From a virus: a stretch of DNA of 45,974 nucleotides. The notes under the pieces were generated by a model. It made no database searches, had not been told where the DNA came from, and was given only the letters and a program-made list of their open reading frames with translations. Positions 1,023 through 45,422 of this stretch are shown one piece after another (position 1 is the first letter of the stretch; each line of letters opens with the position of its first letter). The stretch lies in the IMG/VR virus record IMGVR_UViG_3300038311_000061, positions 1-45,974 of that record; one strand, 5' to 3'. The translations under genes and the position numbers were made by a program.

Positions 1023-1095
1023 GGTCGTGTAACTCTCTGTATGATAAGTACTTTTTACTTCCGATAATGAAAAATTATTACCAGTTCAGCGCAAA

Positions 1096-2088
1096 ATGAG
1101 TGCCAAGAATCTAACACCACTTGCAAAGCAATTTCTCAACCCTGCCGACAAAAAAACCCAAAATAAAATACTGGAATATATTAATATTTCGTCAGCACCA
1201 GCAACCAAACTCGCTTACACTAAACACCTCGGCAGATTTAGATTATGGTTAGATGAACATGATTTTTCATTCCCATGCCAACCGTGGCACGTCGCCAAAT
1301 ACCTAATTGACGAAACCGAACGACGATTACAAGACGAAGGCCAACCTTACAAACGCGCAACGCTTTCCGCTTGGATGGTTGCTATATCACTTGGACATTT
1401 AAGCCTAGGTTTTGATAACCCAGTAAACAATATTATAGTTCAAAAGGTCTATCAAGGCTTGTGCAACCGCTATGGAGTACCACAGGAGCGGGCTAGGGCG
1501 CTCACCCGCAACGAAGTTGTGCGAATGATTGGGACCGAAACCGATAACCACATCAGGGACCAGCGTGACCGGGCATTAATTATTATTGGCTTCACTGGCG
1601 GGTTTCGTACTGACGAATTAGTACGAATCGAATGTACCGATATTTACCCAGTACGCCATGAAAAAGCTAAAGGATATGCGGTTCGTTTAAGAAAAACAAA
1701 GACTGATCAAAAAGGGATCGGACGAGACGTTTATATTCCTTATGCCGGTGCGAGGATTAGCCCGGCAAAAGAACTTGAGGCTTGGCTAAAAGTCGTAAAA
1801 GTTGGTAGATTGTTTCGTAGTGTCAAAAAGGATGGCACGCTAGGCGAGACTTTAACCACACGGGCGATAATCGACATACTCAAGGACCGTGCGCACCGTG
1901 CCCAGGTGGATGATTGGGATATGGTATCTGGACATTCACTCAGAAGGGGATACGTGACATCAGCACACAATCTCGGTTTTGATAACCATGCAATTGCAAA
2001 ACAAACCGGTCAGACGGTGCAAACAGTTGATAGGTACATTGAGGACTTGGACTTATTTGAGAACAATCCGGCAACGAAATTATTCTAA
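1096..2088 (+). CDS. int: Tyrosine recombinase / phage integrase
   Basis: A 330-residue site-specific recombinase that would integrate and excise the phage DNA. Residues about 5-105 form a SAM-like core-binding domain. The catalytic domain shows the full set: Arg in GGFRTDELVR, a Lys-containing beta hairpin (RLRKTKTDQ), the HSLRRGY box (H-x-x-R) and Tyr in QTVDRYIED near the C-terminus. It is intact, unlike the serine recombinase at 12.4-15.5 kb, so it is the likely working integrase. The ATG at 1096 has no clear ribosome-binding site. No attP core can be named from the sequence alone, but it is expected in the flanking non-coding DNA. Confidence 0.93.
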   Translation: MSAKNLTPLAKQFLNPADKKTQNKILEYINISSAPATKLAYTKHLGRFRLWLDEHDFSFPCQPWHVAKYLIDETERRLQDEGQPYKRATLSAWMVAISLGHLSLGFDNPVNNIIVQKVYQGLCNRYGVPQERARALTRNEVVRMIGTETDNHIRDQRDRALIIIGFTGGFRTDELVRIECTDIYPVRHEKAKGYAVRLRKTKTDQKGIGRDVYIPYAGARISPAKELEAWLKVVKVGRLFRSVKKDGTLGETLTTRAIIDILKDRAHRAQVDDWDMVSGHSLRRGYVTSAHNLGFDNHAIAKQTGQTVQTVDRYIEDLDLFENNPATKLF

Positions 2089-2089
2089 C

Positions 2090-2428
2090 TCACTTTAGGT
2101 TAAAGGTAATAGCAATCAGTCTTTTGATGATTTTATTGAAAAAATCTTTCATCTCTTCAGTAGTAAATAGTGAGGCAATACAGGCCATTATTATTCCACC
2201 AGTAGCCATCATCGTTGGACTAGGCGGTTTAGGTAGAAAAAACGAAATAATACCACCACCAACTATGGCAAAAAAACCACACAACAATGATGCTGAGAAC
2301 GAAACTACTAAACTAGTGTCATGCTTACCCTTTTCATAAGAATTCTTTAGCGTCATCGCCACACCAACGATAAACCCCACCATAAATAGGAATGTCATGA
2401 CAATAAATTCATAATAATTGATATTCAT
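2090..2428 (-). CDS. Small membrane protein, unknown function
   Basis: 112 residues, convergent with the integrase. There is an N-terminal hydrophobic helix (about residues 8-26), a second (about 40-62, VSFSASLLCGFFAIVGGGII) and a third around the TMMATGGIIMACIASLF stretch, ending in a short basic tail. It starts 3 bases after the stop of the small frame at 2432-2611, so the two probably form an operon. No family was recognised. Small multi-helix proteins in a lysogeny region may be exclusion or host-modifying (moron) proteins, or holin-like; this is inference. Confidence 0.6.
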   Translation of the reverse strand: MNINYYEFIVMTFLFMVGFIVGVAMTLKNSYEKGKHDTSLVVSFSASLLCGFFAIVGGGIISFFLPKPPSPTMMATGGIIMACIASLFTTEEMKDFFNKIIKRLIAITFNLK

Positions 2429-2431
2429 TGT

Positions 2432-2611
2432 CTACCTACATTGCCCATTCTTACCGTTCCTAATCTCAATCATGATTTTTTTCAAATCTTCAAATTGTTG
2501 AACTGTTGTTTCATAAAACGACAGGTTAAACAGAAACAGTATGATATAGAGGATTAATATCACAAATATCATCAATGTTAGCATTTTAACGTTACTTAAT
2601 TTGATATTCAT
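2432..2611 (-). CDS. Small single-pass membrane protein, unknown function
   Basis: 59 residues starting MNIKLSNVKMLTLMIFVI. There is one transmembrane helix (about residues 9-29), then a short, probably helical tail that ends in NGQCR. It sits directly upstream of the membrane protein at 2090-2428 (start to stop distance 3 bases), both starting with MNI. The topology, one helix plus a helical tail, is also that of inner-membrane spanin subunits, but no outer-membrane partner was found. Confidence 0.5.
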   Translation of the reverse strand: MNIKLSNVKMLTLMIFVILILYIILFLFNLSFYETTVQQFEDLKKIMIEIRNGKNGQCR

Positions 2612-2725
2612 TCAATCACCACCGTAATTTTTACCAAAATAATAATACCAAATCTTCAAAAAAAATCGAGTTTGTAATAGAATTAACACTAAATACTGAC
2701 AACGATAATTTTCTGACAACAAAAT

Positions 2726-3343
2726 ATGCAACAAAGTTATAATAACACTACCGATTACCTAGTAAATAATAAAGGAAATAGGGTACCAAAAGAGCTAATT
2801 AACACGCTCGATATCATTAGAGATGAAGAAGTCCGGTCAATAGTTTGGGCGGCTGAGGACTTGCAGGCAGAAATCCGGCGAATTAAGGAGCTAATTTGGG
2901 AGAAAATTACTGCCTATATTGAACTGGCTTACGACACATACCAGTTGAAACCCGGCGGGCAAAAAGGTAATGTGACTTTAATGAGTTATGACAACCAGTA
3001 TAAGGTAATGATCCAAATTAATGAGAATTTCGCATTCAACGAGCAACTACAAGTAGCAAAACAACTATTAACTGAATGTTTAAGGGAATGGACAGAAGAT
3101 GGTCGCGACGAGCTTAAGTTTTTAGTTGAGGAAGCGTTGCATGTTGACAAACAGGGACGTGTCAACCGGTGGCAAGTCATGCGCCTACTCAAAATCGAAT
3201 CCAACGATCCACGATTTAGGAAAGCCCAACTCGCCATAAAAAATGCCATCATGCCGGTTGACGCTAAGGAATATATCAGGATCCATAAGCGTGACAAGAT
3301 GGGACGATGGGAGTACATTAATTTAAATTTCGCTTCATTATAG
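2726..3343 (+). CDS. DUF3164 family phage protein
   Basis: 205 residues. The pattern VRSIVWAAEDLQAEIRRIKELIWEKITAYIEL followed by GGQKGNVTLMSYDNQYKVMI, and the C-terminal DAKEYIRIHKRD...WEYINLNF, match the DUF3164 family that is common in the early region of Mu-like transposable phages. Its biochemical role is unknown. No Mu A or B transposase is present, so this looks like a Mu-type early gene in a phage that integrates by tyrosine recombination. No clear ribosome-binding site precedes the ATG. Confidence 0.8.
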   Translation: MQQSYNNTTDYLVNNKGNRVPKELINTLDIIRDEEVRSIVWAAEDLQAEIRRIKELIWEKITAYIELAYDTYQLKPGGQKGNVTLMSYDNQYKVMIQINENFAFNEQLQVAKQLLTECLREWTEDGRDELKFLVEEALHVDKQGRVNRWQVMRLLKIESNDPRFRKAQLAIKNAIMPVDAKEYIRIHKRDKMGRWEYINLNFASL

Positions 3344-3353
3344 TGAGATTGAT

Positions 3354-3473
3354 ATGCGTAAAAGTTTACCTGAGTTAATAACAGATATGGAAGATAGTCT
3401 GTGTCAATTTCAACCACTGCAACAACAGATAATAATGAGAGCGTTAAATGATTTAGAACAAATTAATCTTTAA
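3354..3473 (+). CDS. Small ORF after the DUF3164 gene
   Basis: 39 residues starting MRKSLPELITDMEDSLCQF, with a leucine-rich, probably helical body and the ending LNDLEQINL. It starts 11 bases after the DUF3164 gene with a GTGAGATT site before the ATG, so it is likely co-transcribed. No function was recognised. Confidence 0.45.
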   Translation: MRKSLPELITDMEDSLCQFQPLQQQIIMRALNDLEQINL

Positions 3474-3505
3474 TAACATCAGCCAGCTTATCCTTTTATT
3501 GCATA

Positions 3506-4063
3506 CTAACAACCCCTCGCAATTGCAGCCAAAAAATTATTAACGATCTCATCCGTACCAAATTGTTCAATTTCATTAACATGATTAGACGCTATCTCCG
3601 TGATGGACGACGTGTACAACTGCCTAATTGGCGAACGTCGCCCACTCCGTTGAAGCAAGCCACCTGATTTAGAATACCGGGTAAATACGCCAGTGTAGCC
3701 AGATTTAAGCCTAGCAATAAAAGCATTCTTAACCTCTTTACGCCCCTTGGTTTTTTTTACGGTCACTTTGGTACCGGAAAAACCCTGACTCGGTTGAAAC
3801 CGATAAAGCGGAATTGCACCGGTCGATGCAGTCTGAAATGGTAACTGGTTAACCGTTAGTTTAAGTTCGTCACCGCTACTGGAAACATTAACAGCTTGTT
3901 CAATGGTGCTGAGCGGTAAATTAAGCTCACCAGCCATTAACCCGGCGTATTCTCGTTTAATATTGCCACTCAATTTGTTGATGGCCTGACTACTAATGTT
4001 CCGATTAGACGATGAGCATTGCCGAACTAATTTTTTAATTTCGCTGTAATCTATGTCAATCAT
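3506..4063 (-). CDS. Minor tail protein Z-like protein in the lysogeny region
   Basis: 185 residues. The C-terminal half carries the hallmark of lambda-type minor tail protein Z (pfam GPZ): NAFIARLKSGYTGVFTR, a glycine-rich stretch with Arg, then SPIRQLYTSSITEI. In lambda, Z acts in tail completion at the head-tail joint. Here the gene is not in the structural operon. It is on the minus strand and overlaps the stop of an HTH regulator (4060-4329) by the ATGA junction, with a good GGAGG site, so the pair is translationally coupled. The copy may have been moved and kept its tail role, or been taken for another use. The family assignment is fairly firm; the role here is open. Confidence 0.7.
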   Translation of the reverse strand: MIDIDYSEIKKLVRQCSSSNRNISSQAINKLSGNIKREYAGLMAGELNLPLSTIEQAVNVSSSGDELKLTVNQLPFQTASTGAIPLYRFQPSQGFSGTKVTVKKTKGRKEVKNAFIARLKSGYTGVFTRYSKSGGLLQRSGRRSPIRQLYTSSITEIASNHVNEIEQFGTDEIVNNFLAAIARGC

Positions 4064-4329
4064 ATTTCCTCCAATTTATCCAATCGTTGCTTAATAATCT
4101 CGATTTCATTAAGTAGCTTATCATAAGCCGGTAATTTCTCTTGGCTTTTCAACATCACCCCTTCACCAGTTAATAACCAGCGTTCATTAATGATACGATA
4201 ACACCTCACTATACCGCAAATTATAGCTACATTAGGAGTAGCTTTACCATTTACTACGTTGGTGAAATAACTACGAGAAACACCGCATTTATCGGCAACT
4301 TCAGCTTGTGTTAAATGAAGCTCTTTCAC
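4060..4329 (-). CDS. HTH (XRE/CI-type) transcriptional regulator
   Basis: A helix-turn-helix is seen in LTQAEVADKCGVSRSYFTNVVNGKATPN, followed by WLLTGEG (a CI-type N-domain signature) and a C-terminal coiled coil (LLNEIEIIKQRLDKLEEI). The end points given use a GTG start (89 residues). However, the frame stays open about 17 codons upstream and encodes IDTINVRIATVV, which would supply the first helix of the fold. The true start may therefore be a rare codon such as ATT near 4365, preceded by AGGAAA. The gene overlaps the Z-like gene by four bases (ATGA). It is probably a second lysogeny regulator beside the repressor at 4648-4986. Confidence 0.8.
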   Translation of the reverse strand: MKELHLTQAEVADKCGVSRSYFTNVVNGKATPNVAIICGIVRCYRIINERWLLTGEGVMLKSQEKLPAYDKLLNEIEIIKQRLDKLEEI

Positions 4330-4452
4330 TACCGTTGCTATCCTAACGTTTATAGTATCTATACGAATTTTCCTATTGCATCATGTTCAATAATGAACGA
4401 TAATTTATCGGTGCGATTACTACTATCCCTATCTAATATGAGGCCATTTCTC

Positions 4453-4472
4453 CCCTCCCTATAAGGAGGGGC
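4453..4472. terminator. Perfect 7-bp GC-rich hairpin
   Basis: CCCCTCC, CTATAA, GGAGGGG. It lies between the minus-strand regulator at 4060-4329 and the small plus-strand ORF at 4495. There is no T-run on either side, so it may attenuate or protect RNA rather than act as a classical terminator. Confidence 0.45.
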
Positions 4473-4494
4473 TTTCTAAGGGAAAGTATCAAAT

Positions 4495-4641
4495 ATGAAC
4501 GTTACAGAAATCAGTGATTTACCACCGGATATCATGGAAGAAGTCATTTCGTTTTTTACACCAGATTTACTTAAATTTTTGTCTATCGAAACACCGGATT
4601 TAACCGACGACGATGGTGAAAATCTCATGGATTACATCTGA
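4495..4641 (+). CDS. Small acidic protein, unknown
   Basis: 48 residues, starting MNVTEISDLPPDIMEEVISF and ending DDDGENLMDYI. It is strongly acidic with no membrane segment. It is placed on the plus strand between two minus-strand HTH regulators. A weak AAGGGAAAG site lies before the ATG, and a GC hairpin at 4453-4472 is just upstream. A small acidic protein beside repressors could be an anti-repressor or DNA mimic, but nothing in the sequence proves this. Confidence 0.45.
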   Translation: MNVTEISDLPPDIMEEVISFFTPDLLKFLSIETPDLTDDDGENLMDYI

Positions 4642-4647
4642 ACCTAT

Positions 4648-4986
4648 TTAGCCACCCATAATCCTCCTTTCCATTTCTTTGAAAAGCAGTAGTTGTTGAG
4701 CGATTCCCAGTACTAGCCGCTGCTGGGACTCGCTCAGTTTTTCATAGATCACACCAATTTCAGACCCCTCTTGGTATAAGTATACTTGCCCTTCCCCTGT
4801 CAAAAGCCAATTTAACGATACACGTAATTCTTCATGTACCTTAATCAAAGATTCACTACCAGGCAGTATTTTATCTGCCACATAATCCTGAAGAGTTCTG
4901 TATTGGATACCAGATTTTTTAGAGAAATCAGTCAAGTTCATACCTTGTGACTGTATCGTTTCTCTTAGCCGCCTACCTACACTCAT
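4648..4986 (-). CDS. CI-like phage repressor (HTH)
   Basis: 112 residues. The N-terminal domain (MSVGRRLRETIQSQGMNLTDFSKKSGIQYRTLQDYVADK, then LRVSLNWLLTGEG) matches the Bacteriophage CI repressor HTH family. The C-terminus is short and helical, and there is no LexA-type Ser/Lys peptidase domain, so RecA-driven self-cleavage is not expected. It is transcribed away from the palindromic region at 5043-5103 and opposite to the Ner-like gene at 5137. This is the layout of a lysis-lysogeny switch. A GGAG site lies 8 bases before the ATG. Confidence 0.85.
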   Translation of the reverse strand: MSVGRRLRETIQSQGMNLTDFSKKSGIQYRTLQDYVADKILPGSESLIKVHEELRVSLNWLLTGEGQVYLYQEGSEIGVIYEKLSESQQRLVLGIAQQLLLFKEMERRIMGG

Positions 4987-5022
4987 TTTTCAACTCCAAT
5001 AACAATAATATGAAAAATACTA

Positions 5023-5051
5023 TTGACTAAATAAATAATTCCGTGTAGTCT
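5023..5051 (+). promoter_or_regulatory. Candidate rightward early promoter
   Basis: TTGACT (5023-5028) and TAGTCT (5046-5051) are separated by 17 bases, fitting a sigma-70 promoter that reads toward the Ner-like gene. The -10 hexamer lies inside the palindrome GTGTAGTCTACAC (5043-5055), so a bound repressor would block it. This is an inference from the sequence pattern. Confidence 0.5.
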
Positions 5052-5103
5052 ACACTTCCAATGTGTTCCAACATAGACGTACTGAGAACACATTGGAAGT
5101 GTA
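5043..5103. promoter_or_regulatory. Operator region with nested palindromes
   Basis: Two structures overlap. One is GTGTAG-T-CTACAC (5043-5055). The other is a perfect 18-bp inverted repeat with arms at 5051-5068 and 5086-5103 and a 17-nt spacer; its left arm begins TACACTTCCAATGTGTTC. The region sits between the divergent repressor and Ner-like genes, so these are the likely operators. The arms could also fold in the 5' leader of the early transcript. Confidence 0.75.
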
Positions 5104-5136
5104 AATCTAACCAACTTTAGCTTTAAAAGCAACATA

Positions 5137-5382
5137 ATGAAACCCTCAAAATTGACGCCAAATGAAGTAAAAGCTGAGCTGCTAAGACGCGGATTCACGC
5201 TGAGTAAATGGGGAAGAAAAGCAGGGTTTTCGGCCCGAAATGTATCTAGGGCAGTAGCATATTGGACAGGGAGAACCGATTCTAACCCAACTGGGGAAAA
5301 AACCAGACTAATCCTCATTGGAATTAGTAAAGAAGTAGGTTTTGCAATTCATCCAATTGCAGAACCTGCGCATTTGCATTAG
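5137..5382 (+). CDS. Ner/Nlp-like HTH DNA-binding protein
   Basis: 81 residues. The pattern KAELLRRGFTLSKWGRKAGFSARNVSRAVAYWTGR...GEKTRLILIGISKEVG resembles small Ner/Cro-type phage DNA-binding proteins: a helix starting LxRRGxTLxxWxxxxG, a recognition helix, then a helix rich in Ile/Leu. It is the first gene of the rightward early operon, divergent from the CI-like repressor. It probably acts as the Cro/Ner-type negative regulator of early transcription. A hairpin (5392-5410) follows the stop. Confidence 0.75.
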   Translation: MKPSKLTPNEVKAELLRRGFTLSKWGRKAGFSARNVSRAVAYWTGRTDSNPTGEKTRLILIGISKEVGFAIHPIAEPAHLH

Positions 5383-5391
5383 CAAAAAAAT

Positions 5392-5410
5392 AGGGCTAAT
5401 CAATAGCCCT
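5392..5410 (+). terminator. Short hairpin after the Ner-like gene
   Basis: AGGGCT, 7-nt loop, AGCCCT, immediately downstream of the Ner-like stop and before the gene at 5431. There is no T-run behind it; an A-run precedes it, so it could terminate transcription on the opposite strand or attenuate the early operon. Confidence 0.4.
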
Positions 5411-5430
5411 GAAACCAAATATCTTAACTG

Positions 5431-6726
5431 ATGGGAAATTATATCATGAAACCGACCAAAACCCAACAACTACAAGCCACGGCGTCTCGCATTTTTGGCG
5501 ACAACGTTCAAATCGAATACAAACCGGGTGGAATCAGATCCGGTTGGTACATATCGAAAGGCGAACACACTTACTGCTTTGGTAAGAACGAGCAAGAAGC
5601 TATTGATTGGCTTAAAAGTTCGCCAATATTCCAAATATCATGCAACATAATTGACTACACCATAGTCAGGAATATCAGACACTCATTAAGTCAATTATCG
5701 GTTGACCGGCACGAGTTGAGAATAGCAGGCTCTTTTTTACTAAAAGACATTTTATACCTTCTGACCAAACCCAGAATAGCGATTCTATCGTGGCTTTGGT
5801 GTTTGGGAATTCCTTTAAAAAGGAGGATAGGGGATTATCCCGATCTGGAAATAAAGAGAAGTAGAAGTGGTTTAGGAACAAACAAAATAGCCGAAATACT
5901 ACTAACTCTTAGCGGAAAGTCAAACATTTTCAGATTCCAACAATCGGAATCACCCTATAATCACATCTTTTACCACAAGCCTCCACGCCTTATTGAAATT
6001 CAACATACAGTTGAGCTACAAGAATGCGTAAGTCTGGATGACATTATTTTTACTGGGACCAAGCCATTTTATGGCCACATATTTAATATCTGGCTGAGGC
6101 ATCTATTAATGTTGCCAATAGAAGAAATAGAACAAGCCCTGCAAAAATGCCATCGACATTACAACTCAGTAACTGCACCGCCCCACCCTGATGAAATCAA
6201 TAACACCATCATCATGCTAGCAGTTTGGGAACTGTTGGCTGGTTTTATAGAGGCCAGTCCAGAACTCAAAGAAAATCTAACTGTAAGCATTCTCTCCAGA
6301 TTCCAACCACAGGAGAGTAGCATAATGAGAAAAAAACACCGACTCACCATGGAATGGCGCCGGCAAATTTACCGGCAATGCCAACGCTTTAAAGTTATTT
6401 ATTTCAGAAGGAACGCAATTAACGAAGAAAAAAGCATAATTTACAGTGCTATGGAAAATCGCCTACTGCACTTTAGTCAAGCCACTGTAGATCATGTCAT
6501 TCCATTATGCCAACTAGTCGATCAATTCCTACAAAACAAGGGACTAGATCGGACAACTAAGCCTAAACATTATTCTGAAGATTGGAAAAAATTCCATCAA
6601 CAGAATGCAGTACTGCAAATAACCTCCGCAGAGTTCAACCAACAAGCAGGGGTCGAAGTGTGGAAAGAACAGGAGAAATGCCGTGTTGCGAGAAACAAAG
6701 CCAATAAAAGCAGTAACAACGTTTAA
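5431..6726 (+). CDS. Early-region protein with possible DUF3223/HNH-like C-terminus
   Basis: 431 residues, function not certain. Residues about 10-60 form a small domain with RSGWYISKGEHTYCFGKNEQEAIDWL, a 'display strand plus helix' pattern. The middle (about 70-330) is helical and unrecognised. The C-terminal part holds ATVDHVIPLCQLVDQFLQNKGLD, then WKKFHQQNAVLQITSAEFNQ. This resembles DUF3223-type domains with a His-containing DHVxPL motif related to HNH nucleases, but the usual final Cys/His pairs are not evident. A second ATG at 5446 is an alternative start. It lies between the Ner-like gene and the primase, so a role in early DNA metabolism is likely but unproven. Confidence 0.55.
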   Translation: MGNYIMKPTKTQQLQATASRIFGDNVQIEYKPGGIRSGWYISKGEHTYCFGKNEQEAIDWLKSSPIFQISCNIIDYTIVRNIRHSLSQLSVDRHELRIAGSFLLKDILYLLTKPRIAILSWLWCLGIPLKRRIGDYPDLEIKRSRSGLGTNKIAEILLTLSGKSNIFRFQQSESPYNHIFYHKPPRLIEIQHTVELQECVSLDDIIFTGTKPFYGHIFNIWLRHLLMLPIEEIEQALQKCHRHYNSVTAPPHPDEINNTIIMLAVWELLAGFIEASPELKENLTVSILSRFQPQESSIMRKKHRLTMEWRRQIYRQCQRFKVIYFRRNAINEEKSIIYSAMENRLLHFSQATVDHVIPLCQLVDQFLQNKGLDRTTKPKHYSEDWKKFHQQNAVLQITSAEFNQQAGVEVWKEQEKCRVARNKANKSSNNV

Positions 6727-6772
6727 GTCGCCCAAAACTAAACATCGGAGTTGTGGGAATTGTTGCCACAAA

Positions 6773-6795
6773 GTGAATTCTCATTGTGAATTCAC
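6773..6795. repeat. Perfect 8-bp inverted repeat before the primase operon
   Basis: GTGAATTC, a 7-nt spacer, then GAATTCAC, with AAA/TTT bases extending the pairing imperfectly. It lies in the short gap between the 5431 gene and the primase. It is a possible operator or RNA hairpin. Confidence 0.4.
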
Positions 6796-6878
6796 ACTTT
6801 GGGGCTATGTCGGTCTGGCAACAAAAATCACAGCAACAACTAAGGCTTGTGAGTATTGGTTTCCACAGGGGTAATGAA

Positions 6879-6983: not shown

Positions 6984-9904
6984 TGACCACAGACATTCTC
7001 AACAATTTAAAGGCCATAAACATAGCCGATGTGGCAACCCGATTGGGATTAAAACCATCCGGATCGCCACACGGTGATCGGCAGATGTTTCATGGACCAC
7101 AAGGCAATGGCAAAACCCCTTCTTTATCCTTGGATCTAAGGAATGGGGTTTTTAAAAACTGGGCGGTCAACGGTGCATCTGGTTCAAATATTGATTTAGT
7201 TATGCACGTCCAAAATAGTGATTTTAATACCGCAATAAACTGGCTGTGCGAAGCTTTTAGAATTGAAAAAACTCACCAGCCAGTTGTGTCCCGAGAAAAA
7301 CCACCATTACACGTATACATCGCTGAAAACTGCCTAAAACAGGCATCAAGCGATGATAGGCTAATTCAATATTTATTAAATCGGGGAATAAGCCAATCGG
7401 TAATCAATCAAGCGATCAAATGCAAAACGATTGGCTTTAATACCTATACCTCGCCATCAAAAAATCCAGGAGAGCCATTTTATGGTGGACCAGCGGTAGC
7501 TTTCATAGTTAGATCCCTAAATCCTGGTCATGTTCAAGCGGTAGATATGCGTTACCTCGATCCTGACCTAAATGGTGGCATGAAAACTCAATGCCACGGC
7601 TCCAAAAAAGGTCAATTTTGGACCGCAAATTACCACGCCGTGAAACCGGCACATACAGTGATAATCGTAGAATCCTGCATCAATGCGCTAACTGTCGAAA
7701 CGGCAGAAATACCAGGCTACGTGGGAATATCCACGCAGGGAGTCGAGAATGCCACGGAGATAAATTGGGGTTTTCTCCGTGGCAAGCGCGCTCTGATCTG
7801 CATGGACAAGGATGGAAAAAAGGGAAACGGAATGTTCCCAGGACAACAGAAATCATGGGAATTATACAATATTCTGTGTAGTTTAGGAATAAGCGCGTTC
7901 CTTATCGATCAATCTTCATGGACTCAGCAAAAGTCGTGTCAGGATGTAATTGACTATCTAGAATCCCACCCCGATGAAGAAAAACAGCTACTTGAAAACA
8001 TCGATAACCAGTCATTCCTAGTAGCCAATGACCGGCTAGAAAAATTAAGACATGTTATATGCCGGTATGACATTGACCTGAACGATCTAGCCAAGCAATC
8101 GATTACCGATGTGAAAACCGCCTTAGAAAGAATTGATAATTACCTTATACCAGGCGTACCTGGGAAGCATAATTGGGGCGAAAAACCGCGAGTTTACCTG
8201 CCCACAATTGACCAGGAAGATTACTGGCGCTTCCGAACCGAACCTGAACATACCACCTTCCTAAAAACCATCACAGTCACAACCGAAGAAAATGGCTCTA
8301 AGGAAAAAATTGAGGAAGAAGTACCTGAGCATGTTGCCGGTTTTAGAATCGCTAATTTGACGAAAGTTATCGTCGCTGGCTATGTGGCGACGTTGAAAGG
8401 CGTGCATGACGATGCGCCCAGTACACTTTATGCCGTCCAGGTACAAACCCGAAAGGACGGTAACCAGTTAGTGAAAAAAGTCTTTGCAGAGGGATTATTC
8501 AATCCTAAAAACTGGGAGGATTCATTCGGACCAATTTATAACCAGCATCATTTCAAGCGTGCTCTGAACATCATGGAAAACATCGCCAACGTGAACCAAC
8601 ACAATGCGGTCAATTTCGTCGGTTTAGCATGGTTCAACGGGCATTTAAAAGTTAACTCCGGCGACACTTGCTACTTTCCTGAACCAGAGCAACAATGTCC
8701 ATATTCCAGTATGAAATTCCACTCTGGCAGCGTTGCCGATGCTCAGAAAATTATTAGCACATTCCAGGACACGTTTGGCCGAAATGCGGCAACGATGATT
8801 CTAACGTGGATATTGGGAACCCATCTCAAGTTATTCACTGGCTACTATCCCCATATGGTAGTGTCTGCCGATAAAGGAACCGGTAAATCCCGCCTAATTG
8901 AAAAGCTCGAAGTGACCACTGGGATTAGGAAATTTAGTTCGGACTCACTAAGTGAGTTTCGCCTAAGAACTGCTACCAGTGGCACTTCATTTCCAATCGC
9001 TTTTGACGAACTCTCTAATACATCTATGAAAAAGCGCTCTTTGCTGGAATCGAGAATGCAGCAATGTTATTCATACGACACCACCAAGACCCGTACCGAC
9101 ATGCTTGAGTTCATTATTATTACTCCAGTACTGGTAAGCGGTGAAGATGTCGATATGCGCAATGTTATTTCAAAAACCGTCTGCGCATCTTTGAAGCGGG
9201 ATTTTCGCGGTGAAGAAATTAATATTCACAACCTTCCCAAGTGGCCAATGCTGCAATGGTTAACATTCCTAACCACAGTTAATCGTAACACTTTCGACCA
9301 AAAGTTAGGCGAATGCCGGACATTTTGCCAGCGGGTAGCATCATCAAAGGATTCGACATCGATGCGGATGATGGAAAACTACGCTCTAGTTTTACTAGCC
9401 TGGAAGCTGGTTTGTGAATTCGCCCAAATCGCCGAAACGCAAGGCGATTACATCAACCACCTAATCAGCGAAATGAACTCCCATATTCAGCAAACGGATG
9501 CCGATAGGGAACCGTGGATGTGGGTGATGGAAAAAATCAGCATGGAACTACACAAGGGAACCTATCCCTACCCGTGGCAAATCAGCCAAGTTAAAAGCGA
9601 GCAACAAAACTACCAGTGTCTCTTGATTAAAATTAGGGACATCATGGACTACATTAATAATTCCAACGATATGCGTGAATTCAGGGAACGCTTGCCGATA
9701 TCAAGCGGAAATGCACTTAAAGCTCAATTAAAGAATGCTGGCATGATATTTAAGGATCCGGTGCACATGCGAATTATGGAAACGGGTAATCGACACATGA
9801 ACTGCATAGCCATCCCATTATTTGGTTTAGCTCAGTACGGAATATTTGTGCCGGGAGCAGATTATGACAGTGATGAACTGTTGAAGGATGTTGCAGGTTT
9901 ATAA
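6983..9904 (+). CDS. Phage replicative primase/helicase (Toprim plus AAA/SF3-like helicase)
   Basis: 973 residues. The N-terminal part (about 1-95) looks like a CHC2-type primase domain without the zinc cysteines (DRQMFHGPQGNGKTPSLSLD). A Toprim domain follows at about 225-320, with the acidic motifs VESCINAL and CMDKDGKKG. A middle domain contains VIVAGYVATLKGVHDDAPS. At about 620-760 lies a helicase ATPase with Walker A (SADKGTGKSRL) and Walker B (IAFDELSN). The combination matches DUF927/Toprim replication proteins of temperate phages and P4-like elements, which prime and unwind at the phage origin. It heads a cluster of small genes running to 11.4 kb. Confidence 0.9.
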   Translation: MTTDILNNLKAINIADVATRLGLKPSGSPHGDRQMFHGPQGNGKTPSLSLDLRNGVFKNWAVNGASGSNIDLVMHVQNSDFNTAINWLCEAFRIEKTHQPVVSREKPPLHVYIAENCLKQASSDDRLIQYLLNRGISQSVINQAIKCKTIGFNTYTSPSKNPGEPFYGGPAVAFIVRSLNPGHVQAVDMRYLDPDLNGGMKTQCHGSKKGQFWTANYHAVKPAHTVIIVESCINALTVETAEIPGYVGISTQGVENATEINWGFLRGKRALICMDKDGKKGNGMFPGQQKSWELYNILCSLGISAFLIDQSSWTQQKSCQDVIDYLESHPDEEKQLLENIDNQSFLVANDRLEKLRHVICRYDIDLNDLAKQSITDVKTALERIDNYLIPGVPGKHNWGEKPRVYLPTIDQEDYWRFRTEPEHTTFLKTITVTTEENGSKEKIEEEVPEHVAGFRIANLTKVIVAGYVATLKGVHDDAPSTLYAVQVQTRKDGNQLVKKVFAEGLFNPKNWEDSFGPIYNQHHFKRALNIMENIANVNQHNAVNFVGLAWFNGHLKVNSGDTCYFPEPEQQCPYSSMKFHSGSVADAQKIISTFQDTFGRNAATMILTWILGTHLKLFTGYYPHMVVSADKGTGKSRLIEKLEVTTGIRKFSSDSLSEFRLRTATSGTSFPIAFDELSNTSMKKRSLLESRMQQCYSYDTTKTRTDMLEFIIITPVLVSGEDVDMRNVISKTVCASLKRDFRGEEINIHNLPKWPMLQWLTFLTTVNRNTFDQKLGECRTFCQRVASSKDSTSMRMMENYALVLLAWKLVCEFAQIAETQGDYINHLISEMNSHIQQTDADREPWMWVMEKISMELHKGTYPYPWQISQVKSEQQNYQCLLIKIRDIMDYINNSNDMREFRERLPISSGNALKAQLKNAGMIFKDPVHMRIMETGNRHMNCIAIPLFGLAQYGIFVPGADYDSDELLKDVAGL

Positions 9905-10212: not shown

Positions 10213-10416
10213 ATGAACCTTCAATCCGACTATCAAGCGTTACAGTATGAACTATATAAACTCAAGCAAGAAAAAAAGTTATTAAGGTCTAAGTTAAACA
10301 GGGTCTGTTGTAGGCACAGATATATTCAGGATGAATTACGGAAACATATGAAGGCATGGAGATCCAGACAAAGAATGAAACAAACATCAATAGATGGGGC
10401 ACTAGAATTTCGGTGA
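10213..10416 (+). CDS. Small basic coiled-coil protein
   Basis: 67 residues. The first half (DYQALQYELYKLKQEKKLLRSKLNRV) is a clear heptad-type helix, followed by a basic stretch. It is preceded by a GAGGAATAAAAA site. Its stop TGA overlaps the GTG start of the next gene (GTGA), so the two are translationally coupled. No family was recognised. Confidence 0.65.
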   Translation: MNLQSDYQALQYELYKLKQEKKLLRSKLNRVCCRHRYIQDELRKHMKAWRSRQRMKQTSIDGALEFR

Positions 10417-10616
10417 CACTTCAGCCATTGAGTTACATCAACGAATATACTGACTCTGGCAAAGCTTTATCCAGCTTACGTCGTAAAATCGATAGTTTAA
10501 CCATTGTCTTTGAAGGTTTGGCAACCGGTTCAAATTGGAATCAATCAGCGTTAGATGGCATATGGCTGCTATTGCGAGACCTTCAACAACATATTGCCAT
10601 GCTGGATAAGGAGTAA
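10413..10616 (+). CDS. Small dispersed-family protein, paralog 1
   Basis: 67 residues from a GTG start that overlaps the previous stop. The start is supported by paralog 4 (45142-45378), which begins MTLQ where this one reads VTLQ; an ATG at 10356 is the alternative. The family signature is LRRKIDSLTIVFEGLATGSNWNQSALDGIWLLLRDLQQHIAML. Three further members lie at 16312, 26770 and 45378. It is probably an all-helical protein with acidic ends and unknown function. Unlike the other three, it has no terminator-plus-leader unit upstream and is expressed from the early operon. Confidence 0.75.
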   Translation: MTLQPLSYINEYTDSGKALSSLRRKIDSLTIVFEGLATGSNWNQSALDGIWLLLRDLQQHIAMLDKE

Positions 10617-12555: not shown

Positions 12556-13041
12556 GGTAAGTATTTTTGGAGAAGAAATTGATAAGGGGCATGGACGCTT
12601 GGAAATACGACGCTACTGGGTGACGATAAATACGCAGCATTTAGATACACTCCCTTCAGTTGAAAAATGGAAGGGGTTAATGAGTATGGGTATGGTAGAT
12701 CGTCGTTGTCGGATTGGTGAGAAACAGACTTGTGAACGACGTTATTTCGTAAATTCTATTGCTGCAGATGCGAAGCTTTTTTCTGAAGCTGTGCGTGGGT
12801 ATTGGGGGATAGAAAATCATTTGCATTGGCGGTTGGATGTCTTGTTTCGTGAGGATGCTAGTCGAATTCGTAAAGGGAATGCGCCAGCTATTATGGCTAC
12901 AGTACGTCATTTGTGCTTGGGGCTTTTTGATGTGGATACCACCATTTCTAACCTCGCTAAAAAAACGTCGAAAGGCTAGTTGGAATGATCGGTACCGCGC
13001 TAATATTGTCTTTGGTAAGTATTTTTAATGCGCTGGCCCTG
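12556..13041 (+). mobile_element. ISAs1-family remnant (3' end with transposase C-terminus)
   Basis: The frame from about 12558 reads GEEIDKGHGRLEIRRYWVT, then GYWGIENHLHWRLDVLFREDASRIRKGN (each segment matches ISAs1/H-repeat DDE transposases, including the terminal Glu region). The reading frame breaks at a run of seven A (12959-12965). The true C-terminus (LKKRRKASWNDRYRANIVF) continues in another frame to a TAA near 13026. The sequence then ends in GCGCTGGCCCTG, the expected right end of an ISAs1 element. The left half is gone. The 13-mer GGTAAGTATTTTT occurs at both 12556 and 13014, which may reflect the deletion event. Confidence 0.85.
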
Positions 13042-13064
13042 TATGAAAAATAATGCTGCTAATG
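13042..13064 (+). pseudogene. Serine recombinase, short middle fragment between two insertions
   Basis: After the ISAs1 end, the bases up to the IS4 element encode MKNNAAN in the frame that resumes as GYFNRGRVPYGYRV after the IS4 element. They are followed directly by the IS4 inverted repeat. The last ten bases, GCTGCTAATG (13055-13064), are the left copy of the IS4 target duplication. Confidence 0.75.
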
Positions 13065-14279
13065 CTCTGTACAGGACATTAATTGAATTTATGTGTAGAT
13101 AAGTATATTAATGCGATAGAATGGTCATATTATGTTAAAAATAGGCAGTTACCAACTTACCTAAGGATCAAACATGACCACAACCACTCTACTCGCTCAA
13201 GAATTATCTCCTTTAAACTGGTCCGGTGCAAGACTGATTTTGATAGCCCATTTTCTCATTGGGGTAATCAAATTACGCACCGTCAACTTAGTGCGGTTAG
13301 CGGGCGTCTTTGATACAAAGGTGGAAGTCGATTCCAACTACAAGCGCCTCCAACGCTTCTTCCGACATTTTGAACTGGATTTTGATGCGGTTGCTCGGCT
13401 CATCTATCGATGGTTACCAAGTGGAGAATGGATACTCTGTTTGGACCGAACCAATTGGCAGATAGGTACTACGAGTGTGAACGTTTTGGTATTGGCTGTA
13501 GCATATCGAGGGATTGCAATACCCCTCATTTGGACTGGTCTTAATAAGAAAGGAAATTCCAGTACCAAAGAACGAATAACCTTGTTGGAGCGCTTTATTA
13601 AACTGTTTGGTAAAGAGCGGATAGCTTACCTTACTGCGGATCGAGAGTTTCGTGGCCATGATTGGCTACGCTACCTCGTTTCCGAGCAAATTCCGTTTCG
13701 AGTGCGAATCCCGAATAATACTCAGGTACCCAATCGGCATCGAAACCAGACCGTGCCGGTCACTCGCCTCTTTCGGTTGAGAGTCGGTGAAGTCATGGTA
13801 CTTAGCTCAGCAAGAAGAGTTTGGGGCATTTCGGTTTATCTCGGAGCCGTGCGTACTCCAGAGGAACTCGCCATTATTATCGCCAACGCGCATAACCAAC
13901 ATCTCGTGGCGGATTATGCTCGTCGTTGGGAAATTGAGACCTTATTTGGGTGCCTGAAATCACGGGGATTTGACTTAGAACAGACCCGTTTACGTGACCC
14001 ACAAAGGTTGAGTAAACTTCTAGCACTTCTAGCCATGGCCTTTTGTTGGTGTTATCGAATCGGCGAATGGCAGGCGACGCAAAAACCCATCCGGCGCTTG
14101 AAACATGGACGTCCGGTTTATTGCCTCTTTCGTTATGGGTTAGATTATCTGAGCCGAATACTCTTCCAGGCGGGATCAAGGTTTGGTCAATTCAAGGAGA
14201 TATTGGAATGGCTCTTTGGTAAAAAAACTACTATAAATTCTATTCTTTGCTAATAGATTTTATTAATGTCCTGTACAGA
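13065..14279 (+). mobile_element. Complete IS4-family insertion sequence
   Basis: About 1.2 kb bounded by inverted repeats. The left copy is CTCTGTACAGGACATTAAT at 13065-13083. Its exact reverse complement lies at 14262-14280; the outermost G is shared with the duplicated target. The flanks GCTGCTAATG at 13055-13064 and 14280-14289 form a 10-bp target-site duplication, normal for IS4-family elements. The transposase is intact, so the insertion may be recent. The element splits the already damaged serine recombinase. Confidence 0.93.
13174..14253 (+). CDS. IS4-family transposase
   Basis: 359 residues, apparently full length. DDE residues: the first Asp in WILCLDRTNWQIG, the second in YLTADREFRG, and Glu in the YREK signature YARRWEIETLFGCLKSRGFD. 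The C-terminus ends a few bases before the right inverted repeat. It moves the element by cut-and-paste. It is transcribed in the same direction as the recombinase it interrupts. Confidence 0.92.
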   Translation: MTTTTLLAQELSPLNWSGARLILIAHFLIGVIKLRTVNLVRLAGVFDTKVEVDSNYKRLQRFFRHFELDFDAVARLIYRWLPSGEWILCLDRTNWQIGTTSVNVLVLAVAYRGIAIPLIWTGLNKKGNSSTKERITLLERFIKLFGKERIAYLTADREFRGHDWLRYLVSEQIPFRVRIPNNTQVPNRHRNQTVPVTRLFRLRVGEVMVLSSARRVWGISVYLGAVRTPEELAIIIANAHNQHLVADYARRWEIETLFGCLKSRGFDLEQTRLRDPQRLSKLLALLAMAFCWCYRIGEWQATQKPIRRLKHGRPVYCLFRYGLDYLSRILFQAGSRFGQFKEILEWLFGKKTTINSILC

Positions 14280-14280
14280 G

Positions 14281-15464
14281 CTGCTAATGGTTATTTTAAT
14301 AGGGGTAGGGTGCCATATGGTTACCGAGTTATTCCCGATGGGGCTAACCCAAAGCGTAGGCGGTTAGCTATTGAACCGGGGGAGAGTGTTGTAGTCTATG
14401 CTATGTTCAAGGAAAGGCTAAGGGGTATGGGGGCTAAGAATTTATCCCGGTATCTAAATACCCTAGGAGGTAATAGAGGTAGACCGTGGAATAAAGCCAG
14501 TGTGACCGGTGTTTTAAGGAGTGAAGCGGTTATCGGACGAACTGTTTTCAACCGTTATGACAAAACTCATGGTAAGCGACTAAAAGATGAAAGTGAATGG
14601 ATTCGAGTTGACAGTCACGAGCCGATTATTGATATTGGCACATGGCAAATCGTTCAAGAAATGATGAATGAAGGAATTAATCCAGCATCTGGTAGCCCAA
14701 ATAGCAGACATCTTTTTACCGGTTTGTGTCGTTGTGCTAAGTGTGGGTCGATAATGTTAGCTAAGAGTAGCCGTGGTGGTAAATATTACTACTATGAGTG
14801 TGGTAGTAAGTCTAAGTATGACCGATGTGACTAAAAGGCTGTAAGACTTGATAAAGTTGAAGATTCTTTGATTGATGTAATTTGCCAACGTGTTTTTAGT
14901 CCTACAGCTTTGCGTGAAATAGTTGACGACATGAAAAAACTATACCTTGAGCACCAACAAAAGAGAAGTCGCCAGTGGCAAGAATCCAATGCAAGGCTGA
15001 TTAAATTAAGACAGGAAATTGATAATTTATTGGATGTTTTGCAGTCTGTTGGAACAGAAAATACAGAAATCGTCGATAGGTTGAAAGAAAAGTCAATTGA
15101 AAAGCAGCGATTGGAAGCCCTAGTTGCTACTAATGGCAGTAAGATGGTGAGGGATCTTAATTCACTTAAGATAGATACAAACTTGTTAAGTGAATATCTA
15201 ATTAATATGGTAAATAAATTTAGGCTTAATGAATCGTCAAGAATAAGAGCGTTTTTTAAAATGTTCATTCAAAAAGTACTCTTATCTGAAGTACAAATTG
15301 AATTATTTTATAGTCCAGAAATAATAATAAATACAAAGGCTTATATTGAAGTACCTAGCATGGTCTGGAAAGATGTTAAGTGGCTCCCCGGGACAACCAT
15401 ATTAAGTAGTTATAAGTTAATTAAAATCGATATTCAATTGCCAAGGTACTCCCTGACCACCTAG
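14281..15464 (+). pseudogene. Large serine recombinase, C-terminal part with internal TAA
   Basis: The frame picks up with AANGYFNRGRVPYGYRV, then the recombinase domain (VYAMFKERLRGMGAKNLSRY, NKASVTGVLRSEAVIGRTVF) and a zinc ribbon (CRCAKCGSIM...YYYECGSK..DRCD). A TAA at 14832-14834 interrupts it. The same frame then stays open from KAVRLDKVEDSLIDVICQRV through a long coiled-coil region to 15464. The TAA is therefore a point nonsense mutation within one gene. Together with the 5' deletion and two IS insertions the integrase function is lost. The bases 15465-15528 hold nothing I recognise. Confidence 0.88.
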
Positions 15465-16311: not shown

Positions 16312-16587
16312 ATGACTCACCAATGCATAAATTGCCAACAGGCATCTAATAAACCCATCAATTACACCATTTCATTCGACAGTCCAATCGAAGCAATGTC
16401 TGCTTTGCGTCACAAAATCGATAGCTTAGGAGTTGTTTTTAGTGGCCTTGCAGATGTTTCTGGTTATACCGAATCCGCTTTGGTTGGGGTGTTGCTGCTT
16501 TTGCACGATATCCAAAAGCACGCTGCTGTCTTAGAGGACTTATTTCTTGAACAACAGCAACAACGTTCTAACTGCGATCACCACTAA
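16312..16587 (+). CDS. Small dispersed-family protein, paralog 2
   Basis: 91 residues. The core ALRHKIDSLGVVFSGLADVSGYTESALVGVLLLLHDIQKHAAVLE matches the other three copies. The C-terminal tail, rich in Gln and ending CDHH, is unique to this copy. The N-terminus has a CINCQQ pair of cysteines. It is preceded by terminator plus leader A. It starts a small rightward group with the membrane protein at 16660 and the FtsK-like translocase. Function unknown. Confidence 0.8.
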   Translation: MTHQCINCQQASNKPINYTISFDSPIEAMSALRHKIDSLGVVFSGLADVSGYTESALVGVLLLLHDIQKHAAVLEDLFLEQQQQRSNCDHH

Positions 16588-16659: not shown

Positions 16660-16866
16660 ATGTCAACTCATCATCATACCACACGTAAAAAACCGTCACG
16701 CCCACGCCATAGACGTATTAACAAGCTTAAACCCAATCAATCGATTTCCTGGCTGTCCAAAATGGAACCAGCAATTATAAGGCTTACTTGGAAAATAGGC
16801 CTTATTATGTTTCTAATTGGCTGTATTCATATCATAACTAGTGAATATTATAGGGGGATATGTTGA
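16660..16866 (+). CDS. Small basic membrane protein upstream of the translocase
   Basis: 68 residues, starting MSTHHHTTRKKPSRPRHRR (strongly basic, cytoplasmic or nucleic-acid-facing), then one transmembrane helix (IGLIMFLIGCIHIITS). It has a perfect AAGGAGGTAATTT ribosome-binding site. It lies 34 bases before the FtsK-like gene. The first GAATATTC octamer (16865) overlaps its stop. It is a likely membrane partner of the translocase, inferred from position only. Confidence 0.7.
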   Translation: MSTHHHTTRKKPSRPRHRRINKLKPNQSISWLSKMEPAIIRLTWKIGLIMFLIGCIHIITSEYYRGIC

Positions 16867-18569
16867 ATATTCTAATTAACTGGCGTAAGGGGGGGGTAAA
16901 ATGTTGAGATTTAGTGCAACCTTAATTCTAACGTTGTCGATAGCAATATCTGCAACATTGACCGTTAGGTTTATGATGATGCAGGGTGCGAACAGCGAAA
17001 TAGACATGACCTTGAACGTCGGTATGGGGCTGATTTTAGCTATTGCTGAATTGGTGTTTGCTGCCATGATGGTGTATTTGTATGATTGTGAGAGATATTT
17101 TTTATCAATATTATTCCTATTTACAATTGCTCCGCTAGTGCTTATTTCGATAACTGCAAGCAATTTACAATTGTTAGATTCCCAGTCGAAAACTGAACAC
17201 CATGCAATGGTTAATGACACTGGTTATAATGCTCTTCTTCAAATGCAGAGAAGTTATTCTGAACAAATTAGCGAAATCAAGTCTCACCCGTTCTATAATG
17301 AACATAATCCTATTAACAAAAAGCGGTTTGATGAGCAGATTGACCAAATCTTAGCTAAACAGGAGACTGTTAGTCAGCAAATTGCTAATTTCAATCCAGC
17401 CACATTAGAATCAGGTAACGGATTCCAGGTTATGGGTAAATGGTTAGGGATGTCAGCTAATCAATTTAAGCAAAATGTATTTTTTATCGCTTCAATTCTA
17501 TTAGAGGTGGTAATGTTATTGTGTACGATATTTCTAACTGTGACTACTCCACACTCCGGTAAAAATTCATCACCAGGGGGGCCGTCCAATAGACCGCGTA
17601 AAGGTCTATTTAGAAAACTTTTTTCGTCGTTTAAATTACCAAGTATTGTCCAGCAACCCACATCTCAACCTAGTGGAGCTAGAGCATTGAATATTCAAGA
17701 GAATATTAACTCGGAATATTCCAGGAGAAATGCCGATGGCCAGCTAGCTTTCAAAGTATCGGATGATGGAAATATCAATGCCAGTCTAGATGAATTTCCT
17801 CATATTATTATTGCCGGTAGAACCGGTTCGGGAAAGAGTAATTTTACCAGGGCGATGTTACTGCAACTACTTAATAAAAATGGACCAAAACAGCTTCAAC
17901 TGATTATTATTGATTTGAAAAACGCTGAATTTTTTATGTATGAGAGCCTTCCGCATTTAATGAAGCCGATCCTCTCGACAAAAGAACCGAATTTTAGGGA
18001 AAGGGCTATTGAATATTTAACGTTTTTAGAGAATGAAGTTTCGAGAAGGCAAGCCATTCTTTATGATGCAGGTTGTAGGGACTATCAGAGTTATTTATCT
18101 AAAAATAAATCAGCACCATATCCATATTTACTAGTTATTATTGAGGAAATTAGTATCATTTCCACCAACAAACAAATCCAAGAAAGGTTGAGAAATCTAA
18201 CTTCTCTTGCTAGAAGTACTGGAACGAGTATTGTTGTAACCACTCAATATCCGTATGCAAGGGTGATTGGTACTGATATTACAGGTAATTGTGGCGGTAA
18301 GTTCTGTTTCAAAGTTGAAACAATAGCTCAGTCTCTAACCATCCTTGGTTCAAGGGGTGCGGAAATTCTTAAGGGTAGTGGACACGGAATATTCTCAAAT
18401 AATGGTGATAGAATAGAATTCCAAGCGCCTTTAGTTGATGATTCGTATGAAGAAACACTAATGGAAAAATATTCCAAGCCATCGAATATTATTCCGTTCC
18501 ATAAGAATATTCAGAATATTCCAGATAATAGTTTGAATATTCAAGAGAATATTCCAGACGAGAATATTC
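16865..18569. repeat. Cluster of nine GAATATTC octamers
   Basis: Exact copies start at 16865, 17689, 17714, 18387, 18505, 18514, 18535, 18547 and 18562. Five fall within 65 bp just before the HTH-coding part. By eye only two more were found in the rest of the genome (32949, 39033). The palindromic octamer is read in all three codon phases within the gene (LNIQ, EYS and GIF contexts). This means the DNA word, not one peptide motif, is repeated. Variants GAATATTA occur at 16304, 17701 and 18484. Confidence 0.85.
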
Positions 18570-18682
18570 CACTTGTCGAGCGAGCAAAAAAGCTTCGGCA
18601 AGAGGGTAAAAAGCAGACTGAAATTGGTGAAATATTAGGTATACCCCAAGGAACCGTTTCAAAGTTATTAAGGAGAGCTTAA
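16901..18682 (+). CDS. Membrane-anchored FtsK/SpoIIIE/TraB-like DNA translocase with C-terminal HTH
   Basis: 593 residues. Three transmembrane helices lie in the first 95 residues and a fourth at about 190-212. A linker follows, then an FtsK/SpoIIIE-type ATPase at about 295-520: Walker A AGRTGSGKSNF, Walker B LLVIIEEIS, and TTQYPYARVIGTDI. The last 35 residues form a helix-turn-helix (RAKKLRQEGKKQTEIGEILGIPQGTVSKLL). This is the layout of translocases that pump double-stranded DNA and read short DNA words with a C-terminal winged helix or HTH. Such a gene is unusual in a tailed phage, which packages with its own terminase. A TAAGGGGGGGGTAAA site precedes the ATG. Eight GAATATTC octamers lie inside the gene, with one more just upstream. 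Confidence 0.85.
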   Translation: MLRFSATLILTLSIAISATLTVRFMMMQGANSEIDMTLNVGMGLILAIAELVFAAMMVYLYDCERYFLSILFLFTIAPLVLISITASNLQLLDSQSKTEHHAMVNDTGYNALLQMQRSYSEQISEIKSHPFYNEHNPINKKRFDEQIDQILAKQETVSQQIANFNPATLESGNGFQVMGKWLGMSANQFKQNVFFIASILLEVVMLLCTIFLTVTTPHSGKNSSPGGPSNRPRKGLFRKLFSSFKLPSIVQQPTSQPSGARALNIQENINSEYSRRNADGQLAFKVSDDGNINASLDEFPHIIIAGRTGSGKSNFTRAMLLQLLNKNGPKQLQLIIIDLKNAEFFMYESLPHLMKPILSTKEPNFRERAIEYLTFLENEVSRRQAILYDAGCRDYQSYLSKNKSAPYPYLLVIIEEISIISTNKQIQERLRNLTSLARSTGTSIVVTTQYPYARVIGTDITGNCGGKFCFKVETIAQSLTILGSRGAEILKGSGHGIFSNNGDRIEFQAPLVDDSYEETLMEKYSKPSNIIPFHKNIQNIPDNSLNIQENIPDENIPLVERAKKLRQEGKKQTEIGEILGIPQGTVSKLLRRA

Positions 18683-26662: not shown

Positions 26663-26728
26663 GCAGGATGAGAAGGGGAAATAAATTGAATACCCCTCGC
26701 CAGCTTTGTGTGGTGATTGAGTCCTGCC
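26663..26728 (+). ncRNA. Conserved three-stem leader element, copy C
   Basis: Outer stem GGCAGGA (26663) / TCCTGCC (26722). Inner stem GGGG (26676) / CCCC (26694). Third hairpin CGCC/GGTG. The frame from ATG 26668 is open through the leader into paralog 3 (MRRGNKLNTPRQL...IESCRPQF); copy D shows similar residues. So a leader peptide or fused form is possible too. The family member has its own ATG at 26770 with an AGAGG site. Confidence 0.65.
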
Positions 26729-26769
26729 GCCCTCAATTTAGGCGGCCTATCAAACACAAAGAGGTTATC

Positions 26770-27021
26770 ATGTCTACTAATTCAACCTTTGAATACACCG
26801 TAAATTATGGTGGTACAATGGACGCTTACATTACTTTACGCAATAAAATCGATTCCCTAGCACCAATATTTGAGGGGCTAGCGGCAAATTCTAATTATGA
26901 TGAATCCACCTTGAACGGCATCTTTTTTACCCTACGTGATTTAAGGCAACATGCTGCCGCGTTGGAATTGGTGCTTACTGAAGTGTTCAAGCAAAGTAAT
27001 GTTCATCGGCTAGTTGGATAG
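26770..27021 (+). CDS. Small dispersed-family protein, paralog 3
   Basis: 83 residues from the ATG at 26770 (AAAGAGGTTATC before it). The core is TLRNKIDSLAPIFEGLAANSNYDESTLNGIFFTLRDLRQHAAALE. It is followed after 11 bases by a 3'-5' exonuclease, a pairing that recalls paralog 1 and the DEDDh exonuclease in the early region. The cassette stands between head and tail operons. Function unknown. Confidence 0.8.
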   Translation: MSTNSTFEYTVNYGGTMDAYITLRNKIDSLAPIFEGLAANSNYDESTLNGIFFTLRDLRQHAAALELVLTEVFKQSNVHRLVG

Positions 27022-44924: not shown

Positions 44925-45145
44925 GCACAACTTACATTTGCGTTGATAATGAAGTGCTTGATAGCATTTGCTACCGGTACTATGGAGTATCAACGCCAGC
45001 AACCGAAATAGTGTTAAAACAGCCAGAGAATGCACACTTAGCGAATATCGGACCGCGATATGAAGCTGGTACCCAGATATTTTTACCGGACATTGCAAAG
45101 GACATTTTAACACCAAAGGTTGAAAGAATTAAGTTATTTGATTAG
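44921..45145 (+). CDS. X: Tail protein X
   Basis: 74 residues. The LysM-like pattern LDSICYRYYGVSTPATEIVL, then GPRYEAGTQIFLPDI, is that of P2 gpX. Its stop overlaps the convergent paralog 4 gene by four bases. The D gene follows after the cassette. Confidence 0.9.
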   Translation: MSTTYICVDNEVLDSICYRYYGVSTPATEIVLKQPENAHLANIGPRYEAGTQIFLPDIAKDILTPKVERIKLFD

Positions 45146-45378: not shown

Positions 45379-45422
45379 GGTGACCTCTTGGTATTTAGTA
45401 AATATGCCACCAAAGTGAGGGT

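Follow-up and report, generated by a model that had tools for sequence, protein, structure and literature searches.

Gene content and features of the translocase locus

The window, as the whole stretch of DNA analyzed is called here, comprises the 45,974 nucleotides of virus record IMGVR_UViG_3300038311_000061, a circular assembly whose ends share an exact repeat of 98 bp. At its center of interest lies a gene for a DNA translocase preceded by a small ORF, with the following features.

16660–16866, plus strand: small basic single-pass membrane protein of 68 aa (18 K/R/H versus 2 D/E; one hydrophobic segment, residues 37 to 61)
16901–18682, plus strand: FtsK/SpoIIIE-type DNA translocase of 593 aa (PF01580, 3e-24; phrog_1358, 4e-53; phrog_3551, 1e-33; FtsK structures 2ius and 2iuu)
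16901–17560, plus strand: N-terminal membrane module of the translocase (hydrophobic segments at residues 2 to 27, 34 to 63, 63 to 92, and 189 to 218, with a helical stretch between)
17738–18199, plus strand: FtsK/SpoIIIE ATPase core, residues 280 to 433 (Pfam match; Walker A motif GRTGSGKS)
18572–18676, plus strand: C-terminal tri-helical HTH, residues 558 to 592 (Sigma70_r4 and HTH_23 matches, below curated cutoffs; helices in the AlphaFold model)

The four hydrophobic segments (Kyte-Doolittle), which are helices in the model, mark an N-terminal membrane anchor, and the Pfam match and the Walker A motif place the ATPase among those of FtsK/SpoIIIE-type translocases; together with the HTH matches, these findings agree with the domain content originally predicted for this protein (membrane anchors, an FtsK-type ATPase, and a C-terminal HTH). 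The comparison first drawn, with the C-terminal winged helix of FtsK, SpoIIIE, and TraB, did not hold for the fold: three helices make up this short HTH, which is sigma-r4/HTH_23-like and not a winged helix of that type, and no FtsK gamma winged-helix domain was detected in the translocase among Pfam and NCBIfam matches. The AlphaFold model, made from the pair alignment with the relative described below, was poor overall (mean pLDDT, 41.6), and residues 558 to 592 formed three helices with moderate confidence (pLDDT of 54 to 79 by blocks).

The window also encodes a tyrosine recombinase, a repressor-like HTH protein, and a primase; no ParA or ParM NTPase was recognized among the window ORFs scanned. 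Four paralogs of about 85 aa (10356–10616, plus strand; 16312–16587, plus strand; 26668–27021, plus strand; 45142–45507, minus strand) have in common the pattern RxK(I/L)DSL..(V/I)(F/L)xGL...LLRDxQxHxAxL. Within 12599–15464, two DDE transposase ORFs adjoin a serine recombinase split into two ORFs (14247–14834 and 14868–15464), possibly one recombinase that has been interrupted. A short domain at the N terminus (GDNVQIEYK..SGWY) is common to three otherwise different phage proteins, encoded at 5431–6726 of the window and at 4164–6836 and 6968–7936 of contig L053, one of them being a SNF2-type helicase.

A palindromic octamer is clustered in the translocase gene

The octamer GAATATTC, a perfect palindrome of 8 letters, occurred 11 times in the whole 46-kb circular phage record, versus a mean of 1.18 and a maximum of 5 in dinucleotide shuffles, a mean in keeping with the earlier estimate from base composition of about one copy per genome. 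The recount confirmed that nine of the 11 copies are located in and just before the translocase gene, within 1.7 kb (16865–18569), eight of them inside the ORF; the remaining two are at 32949 and 39033. The copies at the locus are arranged as follows.

16865–16872: GAATATTC, 36 bp before the translocase ATG
17689–17721: array 1, in the linker before the ATPase (GAATATTC at 17689 and 17714; GAATATTA at 17701)
18387–18394: lone GAATATTC, codons G-I-F
18505–18569: array 2, in the linker between ATPase and HTH (five copies of GAATATTC packed into 65 bp, at 18505, 18514, 18535, 18547, and 18562)

Near copies of GAATATTC accompany array 2 at 18467 and 18484. Shuffles that preserve codon usage had been proposed as a control together with the original prediction. 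In synonymous shuffles of the window translocase gene with its own codons, GAATATTC reached a mean of 1.5 and a maximum of 7 copies, and the observed 8 copies were reached in 0 of 20,000 shuffles; the five-copy linker was equaled in 5 of 20,000 codon-preserving shuffles. When all 8-mers were counted de novo, GAATATTC ranked top in the window translocase gene, and no word exceeded own-gene shuffles in 13 other window genes tested. Some adjacent copies resemble local duplications, and short tandem duplications are present in both translocase genes (that of the window and that of the relative described below). Since such duplications contribute, the array copies are not all independent events, and the P values given here are therefore guides only.

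The frame of six of the eight in-gene copies is identical (xxG AAT ATT Cxx, encoding N-I-P/Q); of the others, the copy at 17714 encodes E-Y-S and that at 18387 encodes G-I-F. The octamer is thus read in all three codon phases, as claimed at first, which is a true but weak point given that six of eight copies share one phase.

The arrays are conserved in a second phage

When viral contigs were scanned for three closely spaced octamers, 46 stretches were returned, and the corresponding scan of genomes returned 119; a full translocase homolog (63% amino acid identity) was encoded in only one of these, phage IMGVR_UViG_3300038311_000057 (49,474 bp), referred to here as the relative. Two full members are known, the window and the relative, and two are too few for naming a system. 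Octamer clusters elsewhere, as far as inspected, were mostly tandem or low-complexity repeats.

Of nine octamers in the relative, seven fall within the translocase gene, at the same two domain borders as in the window (10538, 10571, and 10581 for array 1; 11375, 11396, 11426, and 11468 for array 2). In synonymous shuffles of the relative's gene, the mean was 1.46, and 7 copies were reached in 0 of 20,000. The linker peptides of the two translocases differ by indels, with the octamer retained, and the copy at 10571 lies in an inserted segment. The copy upstream of the window gene is absent from the relative, and the copy at 18387 has one mismatch there (GAATATTT), so that the latter is probably due to chance. 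A homolog with the same HTH and no cluster, and similar counts in codon shuffles, had been named among the findings that would speak against the original prediction. Neither was obtained: the homolog with the same HTH that we found (63% identical) carries the arrays, and the shuffles fell short of the observed count.

Between window and relative, the HTH was 78%, the membrane module 75 to 82%, and the ATPase 39 to 57% identical. If recognition and anchoring were fixed while the motor drifted, such a pattern would be expected; an alternative source of the ATPase divergence is module exchange at the arrays, which is weighed below. By blastp, window and relative had no structural genes in common, and the matches other than the translocase were confined to a small membrane protein, an HTH protein, and proteins of replication type. 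Gene and arrays therefore travel together. In the relative, the translocase is preceded at the same place by a 65-aa protein that, like the 68-aa window protein, is small and basic and crosses the membrane once; the alignment of the two was weak.

Occurrence in other genes, phages, and genomes

In the de novo word test, 24 further genes of the two phages had no word above their own shuffles, and the same was true of 11 distant FtsK/TcpA-type genes from phages and plasmids, where some of the phage proteins have other C-terminal domains. Through the SSB gene of the relative, we arrived at a host-like gammaproteobacterial order, a host assignment that is tentative. Of 43 genomes of this order, 42 lacked octamer arrays and one matched through an 18-bp tandem repeat; GAATATTC is thus not a general host motif. 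No known prokaryotic role of GAATATTC stood out among the top papers listed in a literature search.

In annotated phages and plasmids, no translocase relative covering 80% of the protein was present among the matches listed, which were about 25 to 33% identical, mostly in the ATPase. Protein-pattern scans with the translocase, its N terminus, and its HTH returned the one relative and unrelated HTH proteins. Profile searches for homologs, which covered samples of Pseudomonadota genomes only, gave 0 matches for the N-terminal membrane module in 369 gammaproteobacterial genomes (a class-wide sample) and in 399 Pseudomonadota genomes. In the host-like order, the membrane module was found without the motor in 2 of 43 genomes, as a stand-alone protein in mobile elements:

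L196 (G758), 1072–2001, minus strand: stand-alone membrane module without ATPase, near an integrase-type gene
L197 (G759), 3–536, minus strand: stand-alone membrane module without ATPase, cut by the contig end

A third match to the membrane module (L198) was rejected as resembling a sensor histidine kinase, and a search of this order with the full profile returned mostly proteins of the size of chromosomal FtsK.

Three further observations concern parts of the locus found apart from it. In L023, an intergenic GAATATTC array (7403–7555) is located upstream of a sigma-r4-like HTH gene (7847–8344) that resembles the translocase HTH; the array could be accidental, or GAATATTC could have a second user here. 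Proteins with part of the translocase HTH (L190; L191 and L192, near copies) had no octamers nearby, but these proteins are different ones, with an HTH identity of only 39 to 48%. In L229 (G755:C66), an FtsK-like gene (2138–4030) without the translocase HTH or octamers is directly followed, as judged by eye, by a ParM/actin-like gene (4043–5119), possibly another motor-partition pairing in the host-like order.

Selection on the DNA word and proposed function of the arrays

Conserved residues under the octamers of the window had the same codon in the relative in 22 of 25 cases, versus 147 of 327 elsewhere (Fisher, P = 3e-5), i.e., a synonymous identity of 88% under octamers versus 45%. At N-I dipeptides, the preceding codon ended in G in 17 of 20 cases in the two translocases versus 16 of 94 in other genes of both phages (P = 1e-8), and the full octamer was present in 12 of 20 versus 0 of 94 (P = 2e-11). 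This G before AAT-ATT ended codons for seven different amino acids (L, E, S, K, Q, G, and R), and the base following the octamer core was C whether Q, P, or H was encoded. The E-Y-S copy, which is in another phase, was conserved between the phages (17714 and 10581). These findings bear out the earlier claim that the DNA word, rather than a peptide, is kept. They also bear on a neutral or peptide-level origin, in which an N-I-P/Q linker would have grown by short tandem duplications and the DNA word would have no function. Such an origin fits the single phase of six of the eight copies, the tandem repeats in both translocase genes, and a host FtsK linker (L100) in which GAATATTC occurs in tandem through an E-Y-S-D peptide repeat. 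However, the kept G, the kept C, and the conserved copy in another phase make a peptide repeat insufficient, and the synonymous identity under the octamers and the irregular spacing of the copies further argue against it, so that we consider this origin quite unlikely. A real function of the arrays at the DNA level is, in our judgment, highly probable.

We propose that the GAATATTC arrays act in cis, as a DNA site contained within the gene of the translocase itself and placed in stretches coding for flexible linkers, where DNA words would be cheap for the protein. The C-terminal HTH of the translocase would bind the GAATATTC palindromes, and this binding would gather the membrane-anchored ATPase on the DNA of the phage, where the motor would be loaded, presumably as a hexamer. 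The motor might then move or anchor the circular phage genome, for segregation of an extrachromosomal prophage or for passage through the septum or between cells. Since the palindrome gives no direction, the orientation of the motor would come from elsewhere or would not be needed. Directly observed are the arrays and the domain order of the protein, as well as the excess of the octamer over codon-preserving controls and its DNA-level conservation in the second phage; these observations suggest that the pump recognizes its own gene as a handle for moving phage DNA. That the HTH of the translocase reads GAATATTC seems to us somewhat more likely than not; for the complete reading, in which the arrays are an in-gene cis site that loads or anchors the motor on phage DNA, with its own HTH as the most likely reader, we see the case as evenly balanced. 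Counted against loading are the lack of conservation of the copies at 16865 and 18387, the single phase of most copies, the contribution of local tandem duplications to the arrays, the inability of a palindrome to orient a motor, the low overall quality of the structure model, the small number of full members (two, too few for covariation of HTH and word to show), and the absence of octamers near the proteins with part of this HTH.

Three other readings were weighed. The HTH or a protein dimer might bind the arrays to tune or block transcription of the gene, and the motor would then need no address. The window copy lying 36 bp before the ATG and the similarity of the HTH to sigma-r4/HTH regulators are consistent with such autoregulation, but the conserved copies lie 0.8 to 1.7 kb inside the gene, away from the promoter, and the upstream copy is missing in the relative; we regard it as improbable as the main role, and it may be a side effect of HTH binding. 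Another DNA-binding protein of phage or host might read the arrays, which would be located here owing to the linkers of the gene. Both phages encode further HTH proteins, and the pairing of HTH and octamer is our own proposal; however, no octamers were found near the CI-like gene (4648–4986), the host-order genomes are without octamer arrays apart from the one tandem repeat, and the arrays accompany the translocase gene in both phages, which have few other genes in common, so that a separate reader is likewise improbable. The arrays might also be recombination borders at which phages swap the ATPase-coding module. They do flank the ATPase-coding region, the most diverged part of the gene, and TTGAATATTCAAGAGAATATT is exact at both of its borders in the window gene (about 17687 and 18533), but simple evolution can explain the ATPase divergence, several copies per border are unnecessary for exchange, and synonymous identity is low gene-wide (0.46, 0.39, and 0.36), so that no recent exchange is visible. 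We therefore hold exchange at the arrays to be very unlikely.

If loading through the arrays is true, gene and address are one piece, and any replicon gaining the gene would thereby also gain a DNA-moving handle, a minimal portable means of segregation or transfer for phages living as plasmids. A wider form of this proposal, a one-gene DNA-positioning system in which the gene is its own centromere, replaces ParA/ParM-type partition in extrachromosomal prophages, and is passed between unrelated phages as a cassette, strikes us as conceivable but rather unlikely. The synonymous-site test used here could serve for other motor genes in the search for hidden cis sites.

Comparison with known systems

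VP882, phiHAP-1, and the P. aeruginosa phage-plasmid pPAC1.3b have terminases 33 to 39% identical to that of the window, and in VP882 and pPAC1.3b, the head-tail gene order is also similar. Both VP882 and pPAC1.3b carry ParA-type partition genes in their annotation, and, unlike the window, neither has an annotated FtsK-type gene.

Escherichia coli FtsK is a DNA translocase that uses the 8-bp word KOPS (PMC2680272), and the phage protein has in common with it the ATPase family and an 8-bp DNA word. KOPS is oriented, chromosome-wide, and linked to a gamma winged helix, whereas the phage has a palindrome whose copies are grouped in a single gene, and its translocase gave no match to a gamma domain. 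KOPS and SRS had been drawn on as analogies at first; a perfect palindrome is incapable of giving direction as they do, and rather than oriented guide words along the replicon, we found 9 of 11 copies within 1.7 kb. A palindromic word and an HTH other than the FtsK-gamma winged helix mean that this is not a KOPS-type polar system.

Streptomyces TraB recognizes 8-bp TRS repeats (PMC4170104), and clt of pWTY27 takes in 16 bp of traA (PMC3583192). As with TraB and clt of pSVH1 and pWTY27, a mobile element here encodes a membrane-anchored FtsK-type ATPase whose gene has short repeats clustered close to it or partly within it; in the phage, these take the form of two in-gene arrays kept in the relative. 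Differences from TraB/clt transfer are the palindromic word, its location inside the gene at two borders between domains, an HTH of another type than the winged helix, and the nature of the element, a tailed phage. The translocase scored 40.7 bits against the TraB family model NF041214 (cutoff, 800), in the ATPase part only, which places it outside that family. SpdA2 of pIJ101 binds the palindromic sps inside spdA2, a site that affects segregational stability (PMC4170104). The palindromic site in its own coding region is shared with the phage gene; binding has been demonstrated for SpdA2 and is proposed for the translocase, and SpdA2, unlike the translocase, is no motor. The nearest parallels are thus clt on TraB-type plasmids of Streptomyces and sps, the palindrome within the gene for SpdA2, and the translocase, outside the KOPS and TraB families as tested, is a variant of the known type of motor with its own address word.
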